Assembly: GCA_014728215.1 (NCBI GenBank)
Contig: WJLZ01000193.1
Location: forward strand, 1 to 36,175
DNA: 36,175 nt
Direction of reading: 5' to 3'
From: Chitinivibrionales bacterium
GTDB lineage: Bacteria; Fibrobacterota; Chitinivibrionia; Chitinivibrionales; WJKA01
Position numbers and translations under genes: made by a program. This document shows, piece after piece, positions 3,444 to 32,811 of the stretch. Each line of letters opens with the position of its first letter. Position 1 is the first letter of the stretch. The notes under the pieces were generated by a model. It was not told where the DNA came from, searched no databases, and saw only the letters and a program-made list of their open reading frames with translations.

Positions 3444-5777
3444 ATGACAACTGATAAAAATATGAATAATTCAATTTTAATGGGTTTCCTTCTCCAAAAC
3501 GTTCCTCTCTTTACGGGTTTTTCTGAAGAAAAGATTCAGAAATTAATCGACCATTCCCGTGTTACCACATTCGAGGGTAAGGAAGCGGTTGTCGAGTTTG
3601 GTGAAGAAGGAAGATTTCTCGGCGTTATACTTGAGGGCACCGCCGAAGTATCGGTAACCGACAATACCGGTAAAAAATATAAGGTAGCAATTCTTGAACC
3701 GGGAGATATTTACGGCGAAATGTCACTTATGACCGGGGATAAAACAGTTGCTGATGTAATCGGAATAACCCGGTGTAAAACACTGCTCATTCCCCAGACA
3801 CTTTTTTCTTCGATGGTGATAACTCATCCGCCCGCAATCCGATATCTGTCGAAACTCATAGCCCGGCGGTCAAAGGGTTATGCTCCCGGTATGGAGGTTA
3901 CCTCCGAAGCGTTACACAAAAGCGATGATCCCTATGGGTTCAGGCTTCGGACCGAAATGCCTTCAAAAATACTCATTATCAACTGCGGATCGTCATCATT
4001 AAAATACACCCTTTTTGATACCGGGAATCCGGGTGCAGAAATCCGTGGTGTGGTGGAGCGAATCGGTGAGTCACGGTTGATACATTTATCATCGTACAGC
4101 ACTACACGCAGCTCCGATGAGCTTCCCGGGGGAGATCATGCCGATGCATTCAGAGCCGTGATCGATTATCTTGTCGATAAATGTAAGGTAATCAAATCTC
4201 CCGGCGATATTACGGCGGTGGGGCACCGGGTTGTTCATGGAGGTGATCAATTTTCCGGGCCGGTTATTATCGATGATACGACAATGAAAGCAATTGAGGA
4301 TGCCGCCGTTCTGGCCCCCCTTCATAACCCCGTGAATATTATCGGCATTCGCGAGGCACAGAAGATTTTTCATTCTGTACCCCATGTTGCTGTGTTCGAT
4401 ACGACCTTTCATCATACACTCCCGCCCTATGCCTATATGTATGGGCTTCCCTATGAACTGTATAAAGAGAAAAAAATCCGCCGTTACGGATTCCATGGGA
4501 TGTCTCATTTCTACATATCCCTCAAAGCCGCCGAATATTTGCATCGCCCGTTCAATGAACTCGAAATAATTTCGTGTCACCTGGGAAACGGAGCATCCAT
4601 GTGCGCAATCGACCATGGACGGTCGGTTGATACGAGCATGGGTTTTACTCCCACGCCCGGTTTGATTATGGGAACCCGGACAGGTGATATCGATCCGTCA
4701 ATACTGCTCCATCTCATGCGGACCGAAAACATGTCGGTTGATGAACTGGATCATTTAATTAATAAAGAGAGCGGATTAAAGGGAATATCGGGAATCTCAA
4801 ACGATATGCGGGAAATCGAAGATGCCGCGGAAAGGGGAGAGCACCGTGCTCTTCTGGCATACAAATCATTCTGTTATCACATACGTAAATATATCGGGGC
4901 CTATGTGGCGGCGATGCAGGGGCTTGATGTGGTTGTGTTTACCGGGGGAATAGGATATAAAAGTCCTGGAGTGAGGAGCCTTTCCTGTCAGGGACTCGGC
5001 TACATGGGGATTGATATCGATGAGTCGAAAAATCATTCGGTTCCCAGTGACGGCGCTGTAACAGATATTTCTCACGAAGGATCACCGGTCAGAATCCTGG
5101 TCATTCAAACCGATGAGGAACGGATGATCGCCAGGGAAACGCTCAGAACAATCCAGACAGAATATATTACCCGGATTGTATCTTCACAGAAGGAAACTCC
5201 GATTCCCATTGAAGTTTCCGCTCATCATGTTCATCTTTCACAAGACCATGTGGAACGCCTTTTCGGAATGGGTCACCAGTTGACCCCAATCGGTGATCTT
5301 TCCCAGCCCGGACAGTTTGCCTGCAAAGAGAGAGTGACATTTGTGGGGCCTAAGGGAAAAGTTGAACGGGTACGGGTTCTGGGACCGGTGCGGAAAGAGA
5401 CTCAAGTGGAAATTTCCATGACCGAACAGTATAAACTGGGAATCCATCCACCCATACGGGAATCGGGAGACCTTGCCAATACCCCGGGCATTATCCTTGA
5501 AGCCGATGGAAGTAGTGTGTCAATCGATAAGGGGGTTATCTGCGCAATGCGTCATATTCACATGGCACCCGAAGATGCTCTGAAATTAGGACTGCGTGAC
5601 CGATATGTTGTCCGCATGCGTGTCGGCGGCGACCGGGAACTGGTATACGGTGATATTTTAGTACGGGTGAATCCCCGGTATAAACTGGCGATGCATCTGG
5701 ACACCGATGAAGCTAATGCGGCAAATATTACCGACGGTATGAATGGATATATAGATAGTATACAGAGCAGGGAGTAA
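3444..5777 (+). CDS. ackA-pduL: Three-part fusion: cNMP-binding-like domain, acetate kinase, PduL phosphotransacylase
   Basis: This 777-aa protein joins three domains. Residues about 16-138 form a Crp/cNMP-type beta-roll with the cassette GDIYGEMSLMTGDKTVADV (87-105); the Arg that normally contacts the cyclic phosphate is replaced (K100-T101). Residues about 174-570 are a full acetate kinase: N180, S183-S185 and K187 in INCGSSSLK, R262 in GHRVVHGG, D319 in FDTTFH, H351 in RYGFHGMSH, R412 in MGTRTGDIDP, and the late metal-site Glu in QTDEERMIARET. The usual GGIGENS loop reads GGIGYKS (501-507). Residues about 586-773 are PduL, with Zn ligand positions H595/H597, H704/H706 and H751, and R650 in GPVRKETQ. 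The chain would interconvert acetate plus ATP and acetyl-CoA through acetyl phosphate, possibly under ligand control. An AGAGGT lies about 13 nt before the ATG. An ATG at 3462 is a less likely alternative start. Confidence 0.92.
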   Translation: MTTDKNMNNSILMGFLLQNVPLFTGFSEEKIQKLIDHSRVTTFEGKEAVVEFGEEGRFLGVILEGTAEVSVTDNTGKKYKVAILEPGDIYGEMSLMTGDKTVADVIGITRCKTLLIPQTLFSSMVITHPPAIRYLSKLIARRSKGYAPGMEVTSEALHKSDDPYGFRLRTEMPSKILIINCGSSSLKYTLFDTGNPGAEIRGVVERIGESRLIHLSSYSTTRSSDELPGGDHADAFRAVIDYLVDKCKVIKSPGDITAVGHRVVHGGDQFSGPVIIDDTTMKAIEDAAVLAPLHNPVNIIGIREAQKIFHSVPHVAVFDTTFHHTLPPYAYMYGLPYELYKEKKIRRYGFHGMSHFYISLKAAEYLHRPFNELEIISCHLGNGASMCAIDHGRSVDTSMGFTPTPGLIMGTRTGDIDPSILLHLMRTENMSVDELDHLINKESGLKGISGISNDMREIEDAAERGEHRALLAYKSFCYHIRKYIGAYVAAMQGLDVVVFTGGIGYKSPGVRSLSCQGLGYMGIDIDESKNHSVPSDGAVTDISHEGSPVRILVIQTDEERMIARETLRTIQTEYITRIVSSQKETPIPIEVSAHHVHLSQDHVERLFGMGHQLTPIGDLSQPGQFACKERVTFVGPKGKVERVRVLGPVRKETQVEISMTEQYKLGIHPPIRESGDLANTPGIILEADGSSVSIDKGVICAMRHIHMAPEDALKLGLRDRYVVRMRVGGDRELVYGDILVRVNPRYKLAMHLDTDEANAANITDGMNGYIDSIQSRE

Positions 5778-23834: not shown

Positions 23835-24623
23835 TTACGGTTGCCATTCGATATCTGTCATCTCTCCATAGAGCCTTTTTGTCACTGTTCCAACGCTGAT
23901 AGAGAAACTAAACTCTTCAATGGGTGCTCGATTATTAAAATCGGCTTCGGGTGATAAGGAAATTTCAAAAGAGATATAGGGAAGGTTATTTGAAGCTATT
24001 TTCATGCGTGGAAAGAAATCGATTGAAAGCCATCCACGAAGATTATTGACGTTGGAATATTCACCGGATATATCGTTATAACTTCGATTTTCGCCCATAA
24101 TTACATAGAGCATGGGACCTGCAGTAATATAGCCGAAACCGGGAATATGAAATTGTACGCCAAGCACACCGGCGCCATCGGTGCCGCCATAGAAAGCGCC
24201 CTGGTCATTTTCTGAGGTGAAATAGGTTGCCTTTGCAATGCCGACTACCGCTAGACGCTCATTGAAAAAAAACGGTGAGGATACTTTGAGATGCCCTCCG
24301 CCAGAAAACCCGAAATTACCATCAAAAACACCAACCGTATCTGTTACTCCCGTATCCCCGGCAACACTCATCTGCACAGCACCAAGGTCGATCCCGAAAT
24401 TAATCATCGATACCGGAGAATAAGAGAGGCGTGCATCGACTCGATTGAGCATGCAAGGAACCGTATCAGCGGTAATACTGTATCCCCCGAGATGATATGA
24501 TATTCCCACCGATGCACGGGCATCGGGGATAGCAACGGTTGGATTGGCAATAGGCGATGCATTGCCGGTGCTTCCGGATATTAAAATCAGGCAGAGAAAT
24601 GTTAGAATTGTCTTTTTGATCAT
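23835..24623 (-). CDS. Outer-membrane beta-barrel-like protein paired with the Ig-repeat protein
   Basis: The 262-aa product has a signal peptide (IKKTILTFLCLILISGSTGNA). The rest is built of alternating polar and hydrophobic strands with many Gly, Tyr and Phe: ARASVGISYHLGGYSI, RVDARLSYSPVSMINFGI, GGGHLKVSSPFFF and FSFSISVGTV. About eight to ten strands suggest a small outer-membrane barrel. I recognise no named family. Its ATG overlaps the stop of the large Ig-repeat gene by 4 bp (24620-24623), so the two are translationally coupled and probably work together. The last residues (MTDIEWQP) do not show a clear terminal Phe/Tyr barrel signal. Confidence 0.6.
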   Translation of the reverse strand: MIKKTILTFLCLILISGSTGNASPIANPTVAIPDARASVGISYHLGGYSITADTVPCMLNRVDARLSYSPVSMINFGIDLGAVQMSVAGDTGVTDTVGVFDGNFGFSGGGHLKVSSPFFFNERLAVVGIAKATYFTSENDQGAFYGGTDGAGVLGVQFHIPGFGYITAGPMLYVIMGENRSYNDISGEYSNVNNLRGWLSIDFFPRMKIASNNLPYISFEISLSPEADFNNRAPIEEFSFSISVGTVTKRLYGEMTDIEWQP

Positions 24624-27600
24624 GGTCGGTATCTCCAGTAAACGACATCTTCAAGCAGTATTGGCAAAATAAACTCATCAGGACTCACGGTAACGATTCC
24701 CTGACTCTCGGCACTGAGTGAAATCTGTATGCGAAGAGCATCGGATTGTCCGTAAACCAATTCGTTTTGGGCAATGCCGTTTTCGGTTTGAATTGTCCGC
24801 TCTATGGTAACCGCTGTGGCCGGGTCGGGTATTCCATTCTGATTCCAGTCGATATCAGGATACCCCCCGGTAACCCGGACTCCTCCCCAGGTCAGGGTCG
24901 AGTCGTATCCTCTATCTGGGTCTCTATACTCTTCTTCAGTCATATTCGGGTCTTTCAGCGGCTCATAAATATCCCGTTTGCCGTTGGCATTGAGATCGAG
25001 ATAGACAGTATCCCATATAGCATTTCCAGCACCATCAAACGCTTCGACATACCCATGCGCCGGTTCGGGAAATGAATCCCTGATACCGTTCCAGTTAATA
25101 TCTTCAAAACCCGGCCCCGGCTGAAAAACACCGTTCCCGTTAACATCCTCACCACGATTCGCAAAGCCGTCACGATTTTTATCTTCACCGTTATCGAGCC
25201 GGTAATTATCATTCATATCTTCAAATGGCAGAATTGTCCGCACCGTATCGACTTCCCACCACCAGTGCCAGTAACCCTGAACCGAATGAGTATTCCAGCT
25301 GAAATCGGGAATGAGCTTATAGATACAGTAGCCGATAATTTTTGCAGTAAAAGTAACTTCGGTGCCGTCGGCCACAGGGTTTCCGTTGATATCACTCACG
25401 ATTGCTGCAACATTCATGGTGTAGGTGCCGTCTTTGTTGTCGACAATTTCACCTATATCCCGTCGAATGGTAATGTAATGGGGAGGACCGGCGATAGTAA
25501 ATTTTACCGTATCCGATTTTATTGAGGTAAAATCACCTGCAACAATCCAGATGTCGCGGTACATACTCGGTATCGATCCTGAGATAAGGTACGTTGTCGC
25601 TTTACCGTCCGCACCGGTGATGGCGGTTGGCGGGTCGAGAAATTCCCCACCGCCAGGGCCGCTGATCAAATTAAATGAAATAGTGGCGTCGTTAACCCTG
25701 TTTCCTTCATTATCATAGGCAATGGCGGTAATTTTCGCCCGGTCACCATTGGTGCTGATTACCTCGGGAGTACCTGAAAGCTTGATACTTTTGATTAAAT
25801 CCGCTTTGAAATAGAGCTGTATCGATTTTGACGTTATCTCTCCGCCTTTCGACGCTTTTGCTGCAATAGTAGCATAATTTGCAAAGTTCGGATTTCGCAT
25901 GTAAAACGATATCTTCCCATCGGCAGCGGTAGTGCCGGTATGCACAAAGAGAGTATCCGACTGTCCCGGAATATCACCAAGCGTTATACTGACTTCGGCC
26001 TGAGCACCGCTTATCGGCGTGGTTCCATCGCCTTCAATGTAGGTCACTGTAATAAGTGTGCTGTCTGCCCCGTTTGCTACGTAACTATGGGGTACCCCCG
26101 CTGCGGGGACCGTATCGATTAACAGGTAACGTGATGAATAATACACCACGGTTTTGGCCGATGCCCCTGCCGATTCGAAGGTGATGGTATCGGGGCCGAT
26201 ACCGGTTCCTACAACTTTGAAAGTAGCTTCACCACGGTTATCGGTGATTGAATCAACGGGAACAATAACTGTTTGTTCCTGTTGCCGCCGGTAGTCAAAC
26301 CGTTCGCCGACTATAGGGTTGTTCATGGCGTCGGTAAGGGTCAAGCGTATTGTGCTGGTATCCTGACCACTGGAATTGATACTCTGGGGGTTTGCCGCCG
26401 CACTTACTTCTACTCCGGCAAATTCAACCTGAATCGAAGCGGTCTTGGTAAGATCATTGGCAAGAGTGGCTGTAACCGTAGCAATCGCATTTCTTCGGTC
26501 GGAGGTCAGATGTATACTTGCCTTACCCTCTTGGTTGGTTTCTGCCGATGATGGTACCATGCCGACATCGGTGATAAAATTGATAACATCTCCCACAATC
26601 GGATTGTTATCTTCATTTTTAATCTGCACGGTAATAAGTGACTTACTGGTTCCATCTGCCTGAATTACCGATGGAAGCGCATAGATAGTCATTTCCCGCC
26701 GGGTAACGCATTCGAGCGATGTTTCAGCAGTGGCAACTTCCTGTGCATTATTTATTGCCGTAATTTCCAGCCGAATGGTGCCTTCATAGGGAAGTGCGCT
26801 GATTATAAATGAACACTGGCCAATCGAATCACCACTTGCATGGGTTGTTCCGACAAGGGTGTCGGATATTGCCGAGCCCTCTTTTGATTTATAATGGCGT
26901 ATAACTTCGACTCTCTTATTTGGCAGTGGAGTACCGTCATTTTGATTGAATTTTACCGTCAGCTCCGAATGATTCTCCCGCCGGGCCTGAATAATATTCG
27001 GATACAGCGCAACATCGAGAATAAGATCGGTTACGTTGATATTGATTTTCGCTTTGGTACCGGCCGCTCTCACGGTTATGGTATCGGTCCCCGGTTGATC
27101 GCCGGAAATAAATGCCCTCGCAATACCGTCAAAACCGGTCATCGAATCGACTGTCCCCGATTGAAAGGAGAGATTGGAAAGCGATTCATTGCCCAGAGAA
27201 AAGAATATGGGAGTGTTTGCTATAGGTTCGTTCGATGCATTCCGAAGATGAGCAGTCAGCCAGGTCGTGCCACCCAGTTTCAGATTGGATGAATCGGTGG
27301 AGAGTGAGATGGAAACACCCTGAAAGGCAACCTGTGTTTCATCGCTCATATTCAGATCCCCGGCCAGGTAGACCGTGATAAATGCGGTATCATTGATATT
27401 CGTACTGGTGAGTTTGGCCCTCGCAGTCCCGTTTGCATCGGTAATACTCTGGCCTGCCTTTTCTTCACTTGGAGGATTCACACCGCCGATTATTCCCGCA
27501 GATGTTATGAATTGTATCGGCTGACCTGCAATTGGATTATGATTCGAGTCGATGACGGTGACATTAACATAGGTAAAATCCTTTGCATCCGCCTTGATAC

Positions 27601-28096
27601 TCGATTTCTCGGGGAGCACCTTTATCAGTTTCTGAATTTTAACCGGTGTGTCGGTGACATCGAAGCGAATTACCCGGGAAACTCCCTGATATTCGAATGT
27701 TATCTGAACGTTCTCATCTTCGGTGGTATGCCAGTATTGCACTCGTGCGCGGCCATTGTTGTCGGTTATTATTACGTTACTCGAAAGATTTCCTGCCGAG
27801 GCCGATGCTTTCACCGTATCGCCGGTAATAGGCTGTTTAACCGCGGTTATGGTTGTGTCCTGCCAGAGTGTGATTGTGATATCCATTGTATCACCTACAC
27901 TGACATAGAGACTGTCCAGGGAGGCAAAAAGCAAAGGTGTGCCTTTAACAGGAATTTCAGGTCCCTGCTGGGTAGGTTCATCCTGGGGAGCACTCGGATT
28001 GGCCAATGAACCGAGATCATCCTGGATAGTACATACAAACGTGCCTGAACAAAGCATTACCAATCCAATTGCATAGAAAATGAAACGGGGTTTCAC
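24620..28096 (-). CDS. Large secreted Ig-repeat (Big-1/invasin-like) protein with calcium-loop-like insert
   Basis: The product is 1158 aa from GTG 28096, chosen because AGGAG lies 8 nt upstream and the protein then opens with a normal signal sequence (KPRFIFYAIGLVMLC, then SGTFVC, a weak lipobox). An ATG at 28123 would add nine residues. About nine Ig-like modules of about 100 aa follow, each marked by Big-1-type turns such as DSNHNPIAGQPIQF, EDNNPIVGDVINF, AMNNPIVGERFDY and NGNPVADGTEVTF. Near the C-terminus several DxNxDG/DxNxNG loops (DKNRDGFANRGED, DVNGNGVFQPG, DINWNGIRD, DLNANGKRD, DIDWNQNGIPD) form a putative calcium-binding insert. Big-1 proteins usually form rigid surface stalks for adhesion. 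It leads an operon with the barrel-like gene. Confidence 0.85.
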   Translation of the reverse strand: MKPRFIFYAIGLVMLCSGTFVCTIQDDLGSLANPSAPQDEPTQQGPEIPVKGTPLLFASLDSLYVSVGDTMDITITLWQDTTITAVKQPITGDTVKASASAGNLSSNVIITDNNGRARVQYWHTTEDENVQITFEYQGVSRVIRFDVTDTPVKIQKLIKVLPEKSSIKADAKDFTYVNVTVIDSNHNPIAGQPIQFITSAGIIGGVNPPSEEKAGQSITDANGTARAKLTSTNINDTAFITVYLAGDLNMSDETQVAFQGVSISLSTDSSNLKLGGTTWLTAHLRNASNEPIANTPIFFSLGNESLSNLSFQSGTVDSMTGFDGIARAFISGDQPGTDTITVRAAGTKAKININVTDLILDVALYPNIIQARRENHSELTVKFNQNDGTPLPNKRVEVIRHYKSKEGSAISDTLVGTTHASGDSIGQCSFIISALPYEGTIRLEITAINNAQEVATAETSLECVTRREMTIYALPSVIQADGTSKSLITVQIKNEDNNPIVGDVINFITDVGMVPSSAETNQEGKASIHLTSDRRNAIATVTATLANDLTKTASIQVEFAGVEVSAAANPQSINSSGQDTSTIRLTLTDAMNNPIVGERFDYRRQQEQTVIVPVDSITDNRGEATFKVVGTGIGPDTITFESAGASAKTVVYYSSRYLLIDTVPAAGVPHSYVANGADSTLITVTYIEGDGTTPISGAQAEVSITLGDIPGQSDTLFVHTGTTAADGKISFYMRNPNFANYATIAAKASKGGEITSKSIQLYFKADLIKSIKLSGTPEVISTNGDRAKITAIAYDNEGNRVNDATISFNLISGPGGGEFLDPPTAITGADGKATTYLISGSIPSMYRDIWIVAGDFTSIKSDTVKFTIAGPPHYITIRRDIGEIVDNKDGTYTMNVAAIVSDINGNPVADGTEVTFTAKIIGYCIYKLIPDFSWNTHSVQGYWHWWWEVDTVRTILPFEDMNDNYRLDNGEDKNRDGFANRGEDVNGNGVFQPGPGFEDINWNGIRDSFPEPAHGYVEAFDGAGNAIWDTVYLDLNANGKRDIYEPLKDPNMTEEEYRDPDRGYDSTLTWGGVRVTGGYPDIDWNQNGIPDPATAVTIERTIQTENGIAQNELVYGQSDALRIQISLSAESQGIVTVSPDEFILPILLEDVVYWRYRP

Positions 28097-28171
28097 AATG
28101 ATACTCCTGAGGTTAAATTTCATTTTGGGCGCCGATTAACTATAAGGGCAGTGAGAACGTATATTATTATT

Positions 28172-30546: not shown

Positions 30547-32811
30547 TTATAGTATCCTGAACTGATTCTTGATCAGCCGCACGGTTTTGGGGCCGATGAT
30601 TTCATCTTTGACAAGAAAATAGCGGGGGCCGATTTTAAACATGGTTCCCGGCATTGCCGCATGAGTAATCTTAATGAATGCATTGTCGGTGTCGCGCATC
30701 TTTTTTTCTACGGCGCTTTTTCTCTTTTCCAGCTCCCCGAGTTGCTGGTCGTACCGTGCCAGGGTGTTTTTGAGCTTTGTAAAAAGAAACTCTTCTTTTG
30801 GGGGAAGTTTTTTGCGGATTTTGATCAATCGCTGAAATCGCCTTATCGGTTCGGCGAGCTTTTCTTTACTCTCGTTGATTTCCTTTATTTGTGATTCAAT
30901 TTTTTTCAGACCCTCGACCATGGTGAAATCCAGACCGACTTCAAGTATTGTACGAATGCTGCTGTTGTTTCCGACCGTGTGGACCGTAATTGAATCCCGT
31001 GCGATAAGGTGGCCTCCCGCAGCGGAGAGCGGATTGCCGAATATCTCGATTGAGTTTTTGGCATAGATTGTTGCATTGATGGCTTCCTTGGCAATGGAGA
31101 CGCTTTTCCGGGATCTGACCTGTTGATTCTTGAGAAATCCGATGTTGACATCTCCCTTGGCGTCAATTAACCCCTTTCCCTGCCCCACAAATCCGAGTTT
31201 ACAAAGAATATTTCCTCCCACACTGAGATGAGCATCTTCGATAGTACCTGAGACCTGGAGATCTCCGCCGCACTGAACCGAAAACCCGGACTTCACATCA
31301 CCATTCACCACAATTGACTTTGGATAGTTGAGATTCCCCGTCGAAAAGTCGATGTCACCCGGAACAACAAAGCCCTCACTTACCTCAACCAGACTGCCGT
31401 CATATTTAACATTGCCGTCTGTGCCGGAAATTAAAACTTCCGGGTGGTCGGGATGAGGTTGCGTGTTGGCGCCGGCAGGAAGTTTTGCCGGGCTGCCGTC
31501 TTCGGCAGGAAGCTCTCTTCCGGTGATATCCTTCCCGGGTTCTCCCTTTGTGGGGGGGGCAAGACGAGCGAGTTCATCACCTTTGGCAACCGACTTGACA
31601 ATGCTCAGGTTTTTGAAATCGACACTGCCGTCGGGATTGGACTTGGGCTTCAGAGAGGATGAGATATCAAATAAAAATTCAACTTTACCGTCCTTGCCAT
31701 TTTTCGGCCTGACACCTTCAGCAACAACAACCGATTCTCCGGGATACTGGTTTTTGGTTATTGAGTCGGCCAACCGGGCCAAAGCATCATTTTTAACACC
31801 AACAGTAATTTTCTCATTCTGCAGAAGCTGTTTGATCGTATCCATTGATGGAGCTTTGCCTCCGGGGCCGGGAGCATGAAGAGCAATGCGGGCGATCATC
31901 ATGTCCGGTTCCAGACTCAATTCCGCGGAACCGTCAAAATCAAGGGGCAGAACCCCGGCCATCCCGTCCACAAAATACGCAACCCCGCAAGCTTTTGAGA
32001 CAATTTCGTTTTTCTCCGATACATACTCCACCGTCTCATCGAGACCGAGCTTCTCCCTGATAATTTCATCGATAGTGACCAACTCACCTTTGATATTTTT
32101 CCCGGGAACAGGCGGCATACCCATCTGGCGTGCCGCAATTACCGTTCCTTTATCAACCCGGTCGATCTCGACTCCAATTTCGGCAATCTGCCAGTAATGA
32201 GAGGCATTTTTTATCTCATTGCAGTAATAGGAATCTTCGATATATTTAACCCTGAATTCCAGTTCGCCTTCCTTACCCGGTGTCGGAGGCGCACCCTGAG
32301 CAATGCTTTCAATTTCACAGGCTTTCTTCTCTTTCTCCCATCGCTCAATCAATTCGGAGACTTTTTTCTCGTTTATGCCGTACGTAACCTCGTATTGTCC
32401 CAAAACTTCCATTATTTTGTCGTATTCCAAGACCTCATTCGGTGCTCCCAGCGGTTCGACAATCATATTAGCCGACATGAGATCCTCGGAAACAAGTAAC
32501 CTGATATTCGGTACTACCGGCCGGGCTTCTTCGTGGTGATTGTGATGGTGTTGGGAGTGATGGTCGGTGCTCTCTTCCTCTTCTTCCTCCTCATAGGTTT
32601 CTTCAGATTCACTCTCATCGAACTCATCATCCAACGACGCAAGTTCTTCAGTGGTTGCCGCCTGAACTTCTTCAATACCCCGTTTTTTTAATGTCTCGAT
32701 AAGCTTCTCGGTAAGCTCGGTGGAAGCATTTACCAGAACAGCGCCATTCGGCATAACAACATCCTCAACAAGCACCATTCCGGGATTGACATCTTCAATG
32801 TTGATAAGCAA
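30547..32811 (-). CDS. FapA-like DUF342 polymerisation-type protein
   Basis: The product is 754 aa. The start is TTG 32811, since no ATG precedes the conserved opening INIEDVNPGMVLVEDVVMPN, which resembles the DUF3391 cap of HD-GYP proteins. An acidic and His-rich linker follows (Glu run near 75-82, then HHSQHHHNHH). The FapA/DUF342 core occupies about 110-600: GVEIDRVDKGTVIAARQMG, PPVPGKNIKGE and the right-handed beta-helix DGNVKYDGSLVEVSEGFVVP, DIDFSTGNLNYPKSI and GDLQVSGTIEDAHLSVGG. A coiled coil spans about 605-700. FapA-type proteins are implicated in flagellar assembly or polar scaffolding, but no flagellar genes are in this window. The His-rich stretch may bind metal. Confidence 0.85.
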   Translation of the reverse strand: MLINIEDVNPGMVLVEDVVMPNGAVLVNASTELTEKLIETLKKRGIEEVQAATTEELASLDDEFDESESEETYEEEEEEESTDHHSQHHHNHHEEARPVVPNIRLLVSEDLMSANMIVEPLGAPNEVLEYDKIMEVLGQYEVTYGINEKKVSELIERWEKEKKACEIESIAQGAPPTPGKEGELEFRVKYIEDSYYCNEIKNASHYWQIAEIGVEIDRVDKGTVIAARQMGMPPVPGKNIKGELVTIDEIIREKLGLDETVEYVSEKNEIVSKACGVAYFVDGMAGVLPLDFDGSAELSLEPDMMIARIALHAPGPGGKAPSMDTIKQLLQNEKITVGVKNDALARLADSITKNQYPGESVVVAEGVRPKNGKDGKVEFLFDISSSLKPKSNPDGSVDFKNLSIVKSVAKGDELARLAPPTKGEPGKDITGRELPAEDGSPAKLPAGANTQPHPDHPEVLISGTDGNVKYDGSLVEVSEGFVVPGDIDFSTGNLNYPKSIVVNGDVKSGFSVQCGGDLQVSGTIEDAHLSVGGNILCKLGFVGQGKGLIDAKGDVNIGFLKNQQVRSRKSVSIAKEAINATIYAKNSIEIFGNPLSAAGGHLIARDSITVHTVGNNSSIRTILEVGLDFTMVEGLKKIESQIKEINESKEKLAEPIRRFQRLIKIRKKLPPKEEFLFTKLKNTLARYDQQLGELEKRKSAVEKKMRDTDNAFIKITHAAMPGTMFKIGPRYFLVKDEIIGPKTVRLIKNQFRIL

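Follow-up and report, generated by a model that had tools for sequence, protein, structure and literature searches.

What a single protein that carries a Crp-type domain, an acetate kinase (AckA) and a PduL-type phosphotransacylase does for its host, and whether the first of these domains senses anything, are the questions raised by a gene in contig WJLZ01000193.1 of a Chitinivibrionales bacterium (assembly GCA_014728215.1), the whole analysed stretch of which, 36,175 nucleotides, is referred to here as the window. The gene is an unbroken frame of 777 amino acids from ATG to TAA, the antisense frame of the same interval being interrupted by many stops, and its product matches the Pfam families cNMP_binding, Acetate_kinase and PTAC, in that order and all above their gathering cut-offs. 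NCBIfam models for an acetate/propionate family kinase and a phosphate propanoyltransferase were also over their cut-offs, and the Crp-type NCBIfam models gave weak matches. An AlphaFold model of the entire chain, computed from 51 aligned window and locus sequences, had a mean pLDDT of 89.5 and a pTM of 0.80, with high confidence in the fold across both domain junctions. A scan of the gene region for promoters and terminators produced nothing better than shuffled sequence. The features of the gene are as follows.

3444 to 5777, plus strand: whole gene for the Crp-fold, acetate kinase and PduL fusion, 777 aa (ATG-to-TAA frame, Pfam, AlphaFold model)
3471 to 3878, plus strand: Crp/CNB-type domain, aa 10-145, with a beta roll, alphaB at 118-125 and alphaC at 129-145 (PF00027, model, Foldseek)
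3711 to 3758, plus strand: altered phosphate-binding cassette YGEMSLMTGDKTVADV, aa 90-105, with the FGE-type start retained, Arg replaced by Thr101, and Asp104
3879 to 3965, plus strand: linker, aa 146-174, with a partly conserved DPYG[FL]xL motif at 162-168
3966 to 5135, plus strand: acetate kinase domain, aa 175-564 (PF00871, E 3e-145, full model; TIGR00016; alignment to 1g99)
5205 to 5729, plus strand: PduL/PTAC phosphotransacylase domain, aa 588-762 (PF06130, E 8.9e-75; NF011652 above cut-off; gap-free alignment to 5cuo)

The initial annotation had taken this to be a true three-part fusion and had called for a structure prediction of the full chain; the model now provides one, with Foldseek matches for all three domains, and the fusion itself is borne out by the recurrence of the same order in 33 distinct homologues. 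The trivial explanation would be that gene prediction or assembly had joined three genes, and the assembly is indeed a draft in 229 contigs, but the homologues come from independent assemblies with the identical domain order, there are no stops in the frame, and the fold is confidently predicted over the junctions, leaving this explanation with a negligible probability. A frameshift or misassembly at a junction was ruled out because homologues from those independent assemblies have the same junctions. The linker between the first two domains, within which the model has a helix at 152-159, is also recognizable across the three-domain homologues (D162 in 23/33, P163 in 24/33 and L168 in 30/33).

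The middle domain spans full-length PF00871 (ASKHA), scores 476.8 bits against a cut-off of 293.4 for TIGR00016, and superimposes on acetate kinases with target TM scores of 0.94-0.95 in Foldseek. In the alignment to the M. thermophila enzyme (1g99), its residues N180, R262, H294, D319, H351, N382, R412 and E558 correspond to N7, R91, H123, D148, H180, N211, R241 and E384, which, according to work from the Ferry laboratory, are reportedly the catalytic residues of that kinase. The domain is accordingly classed as an acetate kinase with a complete catalytic set; it has the full fold and all eight residues in common with the enzymes of M. thermophila (1g99/1tuy) and T. maritima (2iir), from which it differs in being fused at both ends.

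The C-terminal domain covers 175 of the 176 model positions of PF06130 and matches the PduL of R. palustris (5cuo) with a target TM of 0.94. The latter coordinates zinc through H48, H50, E109, H157, H159 and H204 and contacts phosphate through R103 and S127 (PMC4784909). The gap-free alignment places H595, H597, E656, H704, H706 and H751 at the zinc positions, and R650 and S674 at those of R103 and S127, respectively, and all of these ligands are invariant in 33/33 three-domain homologues. Five of the six CoA contacts (Ser45, Lys70, Arg97, Leu99, His204 and Asn211; PMC4784909) are likewise present, Lys70 being replaced by Gly617. The initial annotation had credited the chain with most of its catalytic residues, a statement that was right as to their presence and too modest as to their extent, as all eight of the kinase and all metal and phosphate ligands of PduL are there. 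The R. palustris protein (5cuo/5cup) is 45% identical to the fusion's PduL in the structural alignment and has all of the zinc and phosphate ligands in common with it, but unlike that protein, the fused PduL has no N-terminal encapsulation peptide and no accompanying bacterial microcompartment (BMC) genes. The shell family PF00936 had no matches in the genome, and there were no BMC Pfam domains among the window ORFs scanned. A microcompartment-linked PduL was therefore rejected for this genome, as there is no shell gene and the PduL is fused at its N terminus, and the link mentioned in the initial annotation does not apply here.

Where such an enzyme would act is suggested by the remainder of the genome, which is 96% complete and in which the fusion is both the sole AckA and the sole PTAC. 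No Pta (PTA_PTB family) was found in this draft of 229 contigs, and there are two matches to pyruvate:ferredoxin oxidoreductase (PFOR) in frames of about 1200 aa. Because the fusion is the only AckA and PTAC, there is no Pta, and there are two PFORs, the most economical role for the protein is the last ATP-forming step of acetate fermentation; the earlier proposal of a self-contained two-step acetate/acetyl-CoA module is thus supported by the gene content of its host. Our favored reading, which we consider probable, is that of a bifunctional acetyl-CoA-to-ATP enzyme with a likely regulatory Crp-fold domain, any ligand of which would more likely be non-cyclic. Acetyl-CoA, probably derived from PFOR, would be converted with Pi by the PduL domain to acetyl phosphate and CoA, and the kinase domain would transfer the phosphoryl group to ADP, giving acetate and ATP, with the fusion standing in for separate Pta and AckA proteins in this fermenting bacterium. 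The Crp-fold domain would most likely exert regulation, with its alphaC helix running via the short linker into AckA. We infer the catalysis, direction, regulation and ligand class from sequence, and given the two PFORs, acetate formation would be likelier than the conversion of acetate, ATP and CoA to acetyl-CoA. Substrate channelling between the PduL and AckA domains is possible, and has been proposed before for AckA-PduL fusions (PMC4784909).

Within the class, the PTAC domain was found in 11 of 40 genomes and 11 of its 12 copies lie within the fusion; the 168 genomes sampled from the rest of the phylum yielded none. One genome of the sample (G033) has, besides the fusion, a second AckA and a PduL that stand alone side by side (L167:1854-4363), the latter being the only stand-alone PduL in the phylum sample. 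Among the AckA-bearing genomes of the class, Pta was found in one of the 11 that have the fusion and in eight of the 10 that do not (Fisher p 0.002, uncorrected for kinship). Beyond the class, Pta-family genes scored over the cut-off in 20 of the 36 genomes with the fusion, about 12 of them strongly, and a full mutual exclusion of the fusion and Pta across phyla is unsupported, the trend being found within the class alone. There was no conserved neighbor gene, as the clusters common to many loci consisted of the fusion or of frames that overlap it. Elsewhere in the window, on the minus strand, are genes for a protein of 1167 aa containing six Big_1/invasin-type Ig-like domains (24620-28123) and for a FapA-like protein of 754 aa that matches the N-terminal region of FapA twice (30547-32811).

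The homologues were drawn from a scan of a contig collection and 40 genomes of the class. The 33 distinct three-domain proteins include the window copy, to which the others are 43-75% identical, and the nearest relative (L008/L088, 75% identity) is from a Chitinivibrionales MAG (Fibrobacterota). The MAGs concerned are labeled Fibrobacterota (Chitinivibrionales/Chitinispirillaceae), Planctomycetota, Verrucomicrobiota, Kiritimatiellae, Victivallales, Spirochaetales, Myxococcota/Deltaproteobacteria, Desulfobacteraceae and Pseudomonadota. A further 14 homologues, mainly from Smithella, Syntrophaceae and Spirochaetota, are two-domain AckA-PduL proteins with no detectable Crp domain; one other protein that seems to be two-domain (L026) is on a contig that begins inside the gene. 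In the AckA trees, a 99% branch sets the fused AckAs, together with a family designated f4, apart from the sampled stand-alone AckAs, which are near hits only, and the two-domain clade joins a Planctomycetota-type clade with 81% support. In the PduL tree, the fused PduLs group at 98%, apart from the stand-alone PduLs, and the sole other member of their group (L082) is cut by a contig end. These topologies fit a single old AckA-PduL fusion. An AckA-PduL protein also occurs in the Alphaproteobacteria as one unbroken frame in Paracoccus sp. Arc7-R13 (L168:2819-4582, WP_127899590.1), annotated merely as an acetate/propionate family kinase; it falls outside the main group on a long branch and may represent a separate event. 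In Sinorhizobium meliloti pSmeRU11d (L169:2819-4616), AckA-PduL is broken into two frames.

The family has also come apart in two ways that support the reading of the fusion as an acetyl-CoA-to-ATP module. The f4 proteins (L098-L101, from a family in the same taxonomic order) have an AckA that belongs inside the fused clade, have lost PduL, and have mostly lost the Crp domain: L098 is a Crp-AckA protein without PduL, its Crp domain degenerate (E 3e-25), only the linker motif DDPYGFKL is left in L099, and in all, three f4 AckAs are without the Crp domain. The first AckA tree had f4 nested within clade I, a placement that changed to sister of clade I (86%), inside the fused clade (99%), once long rows were removed. 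Pta was present in 5/5 sampled f4 genomes, which fits replacement of the PduL half by Pta. A different decay is seen in six Planctomycetota/Victivallales fusions (L023, L024, L025, L028, L030 and L036), the AckA domains of which are without N180, the GSSS phosphate loop, H294 and N382, and are probably pseudokinases; their PduL residues are intact, and each of the six genomes has another AckA in which the eight residues are complete. This is the pattern expected if the fused AckA is normally a working kinase that is free to decay beside another AckA.

The N-terminal domain is the least conventional part of the protein. PF00027 (cNMP_binding) matches at aa 42-125 (E 1.8e-13), and the model of the domain (pLDDT 88.7) shows a complete CNB fold, in which alphaB, alphaC, the beta roll and the FGE cassette are all present. 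At the start of the cassette, position 90 is F/Y, and G91 and E92 are found in 33/33 three-domain homologues, but at position 101, the site of the Arg that would contact a cyclic phosphate, Thr occurs in 23/33, the rest have Ala, Asn, Ser, Val or Gly, and none has Arg. Control Crp-type domains from the same loci have Arg at this position in 12/19 (p 2e-7 versus 0/33, uncorrected for kinship), the controls being few and picked up by similarity to the fusion's own domain. By these residues, the domain is a member of the CNB fold without the defining feature of a working cyclic-nucleotide site.

A classical cAMP- or cGMP-gated enzyme, one form of the ligand gating that the initial annotation had put forward as possible, would find encouragement in the Pfam match, the retained FGE and the one class III nucleotide cyclase domain in the genome (in a 989-aa frame, L117, G000:C53:2781-3323), given which cAMP may be present in the cell; in addition, Lys/Arg at position 100, found in 19/33 fused homologues, could in principle compensate for the lost Arg. 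The complete absence of that Arg from the fused homologues, together with an acidic residue or Asn at position 104 in 32/33 (Asp, Glu or Asn), tells against such gating, however, and we think it improbable. With the Arg lost and the FGE kept, which in cyclic-nucleotide domains contacts the ribose, any ligand is more likely to be a ribose-bearing molecule that has no cyclic phosphate, such as a nucleoside, a nucleotide or a CoA-like molecule, than cAMP or cGMP. The FGE motif may, on the other hand, be kept for structural reasons. Mycobacterial Pat (cNMP and GNAT; NCBIfam NF058543, a weak match here) likewise has a Crp fold N-terminal to an enzyme of acetyl metabolism; it is a different enzyme from AckA-PduL, and is cAMP-gated through a canonical cAMP site.

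The closest solved folds to the N-terminal domain are instead those of CNB-B of the trypanosomatid PKA regulatory subunit, PKA-R (6ftf, 6hyi and 6flo), trypanosomatid PKA-R structures occupying Foldseek ranks 1-8. PKA-R binds inosine, guanosine and adenosine, and in its cassette the Arg is changed to a polar residue and an Ala to a Glu, by which the hydroxyls of the ribose are held (PMC10959531). The fusion protein has the first of these changes (Thr101), and TVADV is common to it and T. cruzi PKA-R (DKTVADVIG and HRTVADVVA, respectively), its Thr and Val matching T318/V319 of TbPKAR. It is conceivable that the enzyme is gated by purine nucleosides, as is PKA-R, but the second change is missing: the ribose-holding Glu (E311/E435) is Ser94 in the window protein and Glu in only 1/33 homologues, and its loss cut the inosine potency of TbPKAR about 1500-fold (PMC10959531), so that we rate a gate of exactly this kind as unlikely. 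The systems differ, moreover, in that PKA-R inhibits a kinase, whereas the Crp domain of the fusion is joined to a metabolic enzyme. The exception is L097, from the same family, which alone has Glu at position 94 of the cassette (FGEMELMTGNATIANV) and so both trypanosome-type changes; its genome (G037) also has Pta.

It is also conceivable that the Crp-fold domain binds nothing, and is a structural or oligomerization module by which the dimers of AckA and PduL are kept together in an ungated enzyme. The loss of the canonical Arg agrees with this, as do the lower conservation of the domain (0.54, compared to 0.65 for AckA and 0.78 for PduL) and its absence from the two-domain clade and three f4 AckAs. 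That it is unneeded for catalysis follows from its absence in the 14 two-domain homologues. Yet its best-conserved positions are largely in the pocket cassette (F/Y90, G91, E92, L95, T97 and G98), and T101/D104 are common to distant clades of the family, a degree of conservation that exceeds the needs of a scaffold. We hold this explanation to be doubtful, while giving it real weight, and continue to favor a regulatory Crp-fold domain on a bifunctional enzyme.

The enzyme pair itself is already known from sequence. The parts of Erbilgin et al. 2016 that concern fusions describe multidomain proteins that contain PduL-type domains and are for the most part annotated as Acks; they also suggest that these domains replace Pta, and propose channelling (PMC4784909). 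Those proteins combine a PF06130 PduL with an acetate kinase and have no encapsulation peptide, as is true of the window protein, in which AckA precedes PduL in one frame. The fusion section of that paper makes no mention of an N-terminal Crp/cNMP domain, an altered pocket or a pseudokinase subclade (PMC4784909). In the open-licence literature, a scope outside which most subscription journals fall, no paper on the Crp-type domain of AckA-PduL and no enzymology on any fused family member were found, and the initial remark that no characterized enzyme has this three-part order stands within the same scope. The conserved, altered, sensor-like domain therefore appears to have been undescribed so far.

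AckA and a phosphotransacylase constitute the main ATP-yielding step in many fermentations; if a single chain does combine them with a conserved sensor of something other than cyclic nucleotides, this step would be under direct allosteric control, and bacterial Crp-fold domains would gain a new class of ligand. A bolder idea, and a long shot in our estimation, is that across many phyla the domain is a sensor of non-cyclic purines, i.e., a read-out of energy that directly gates a single-chain acetyl-CoA-to-ATP enzyme, which would be a bacterial parallel to the nucleoside-regulated PKA of trypanosomes. The family offers its own natural tests, in the sensor-free two-domain forms, the lineage that dropped PduL and has Pta, and the subclade with an AckA that has lost its active site and an intact PduL.
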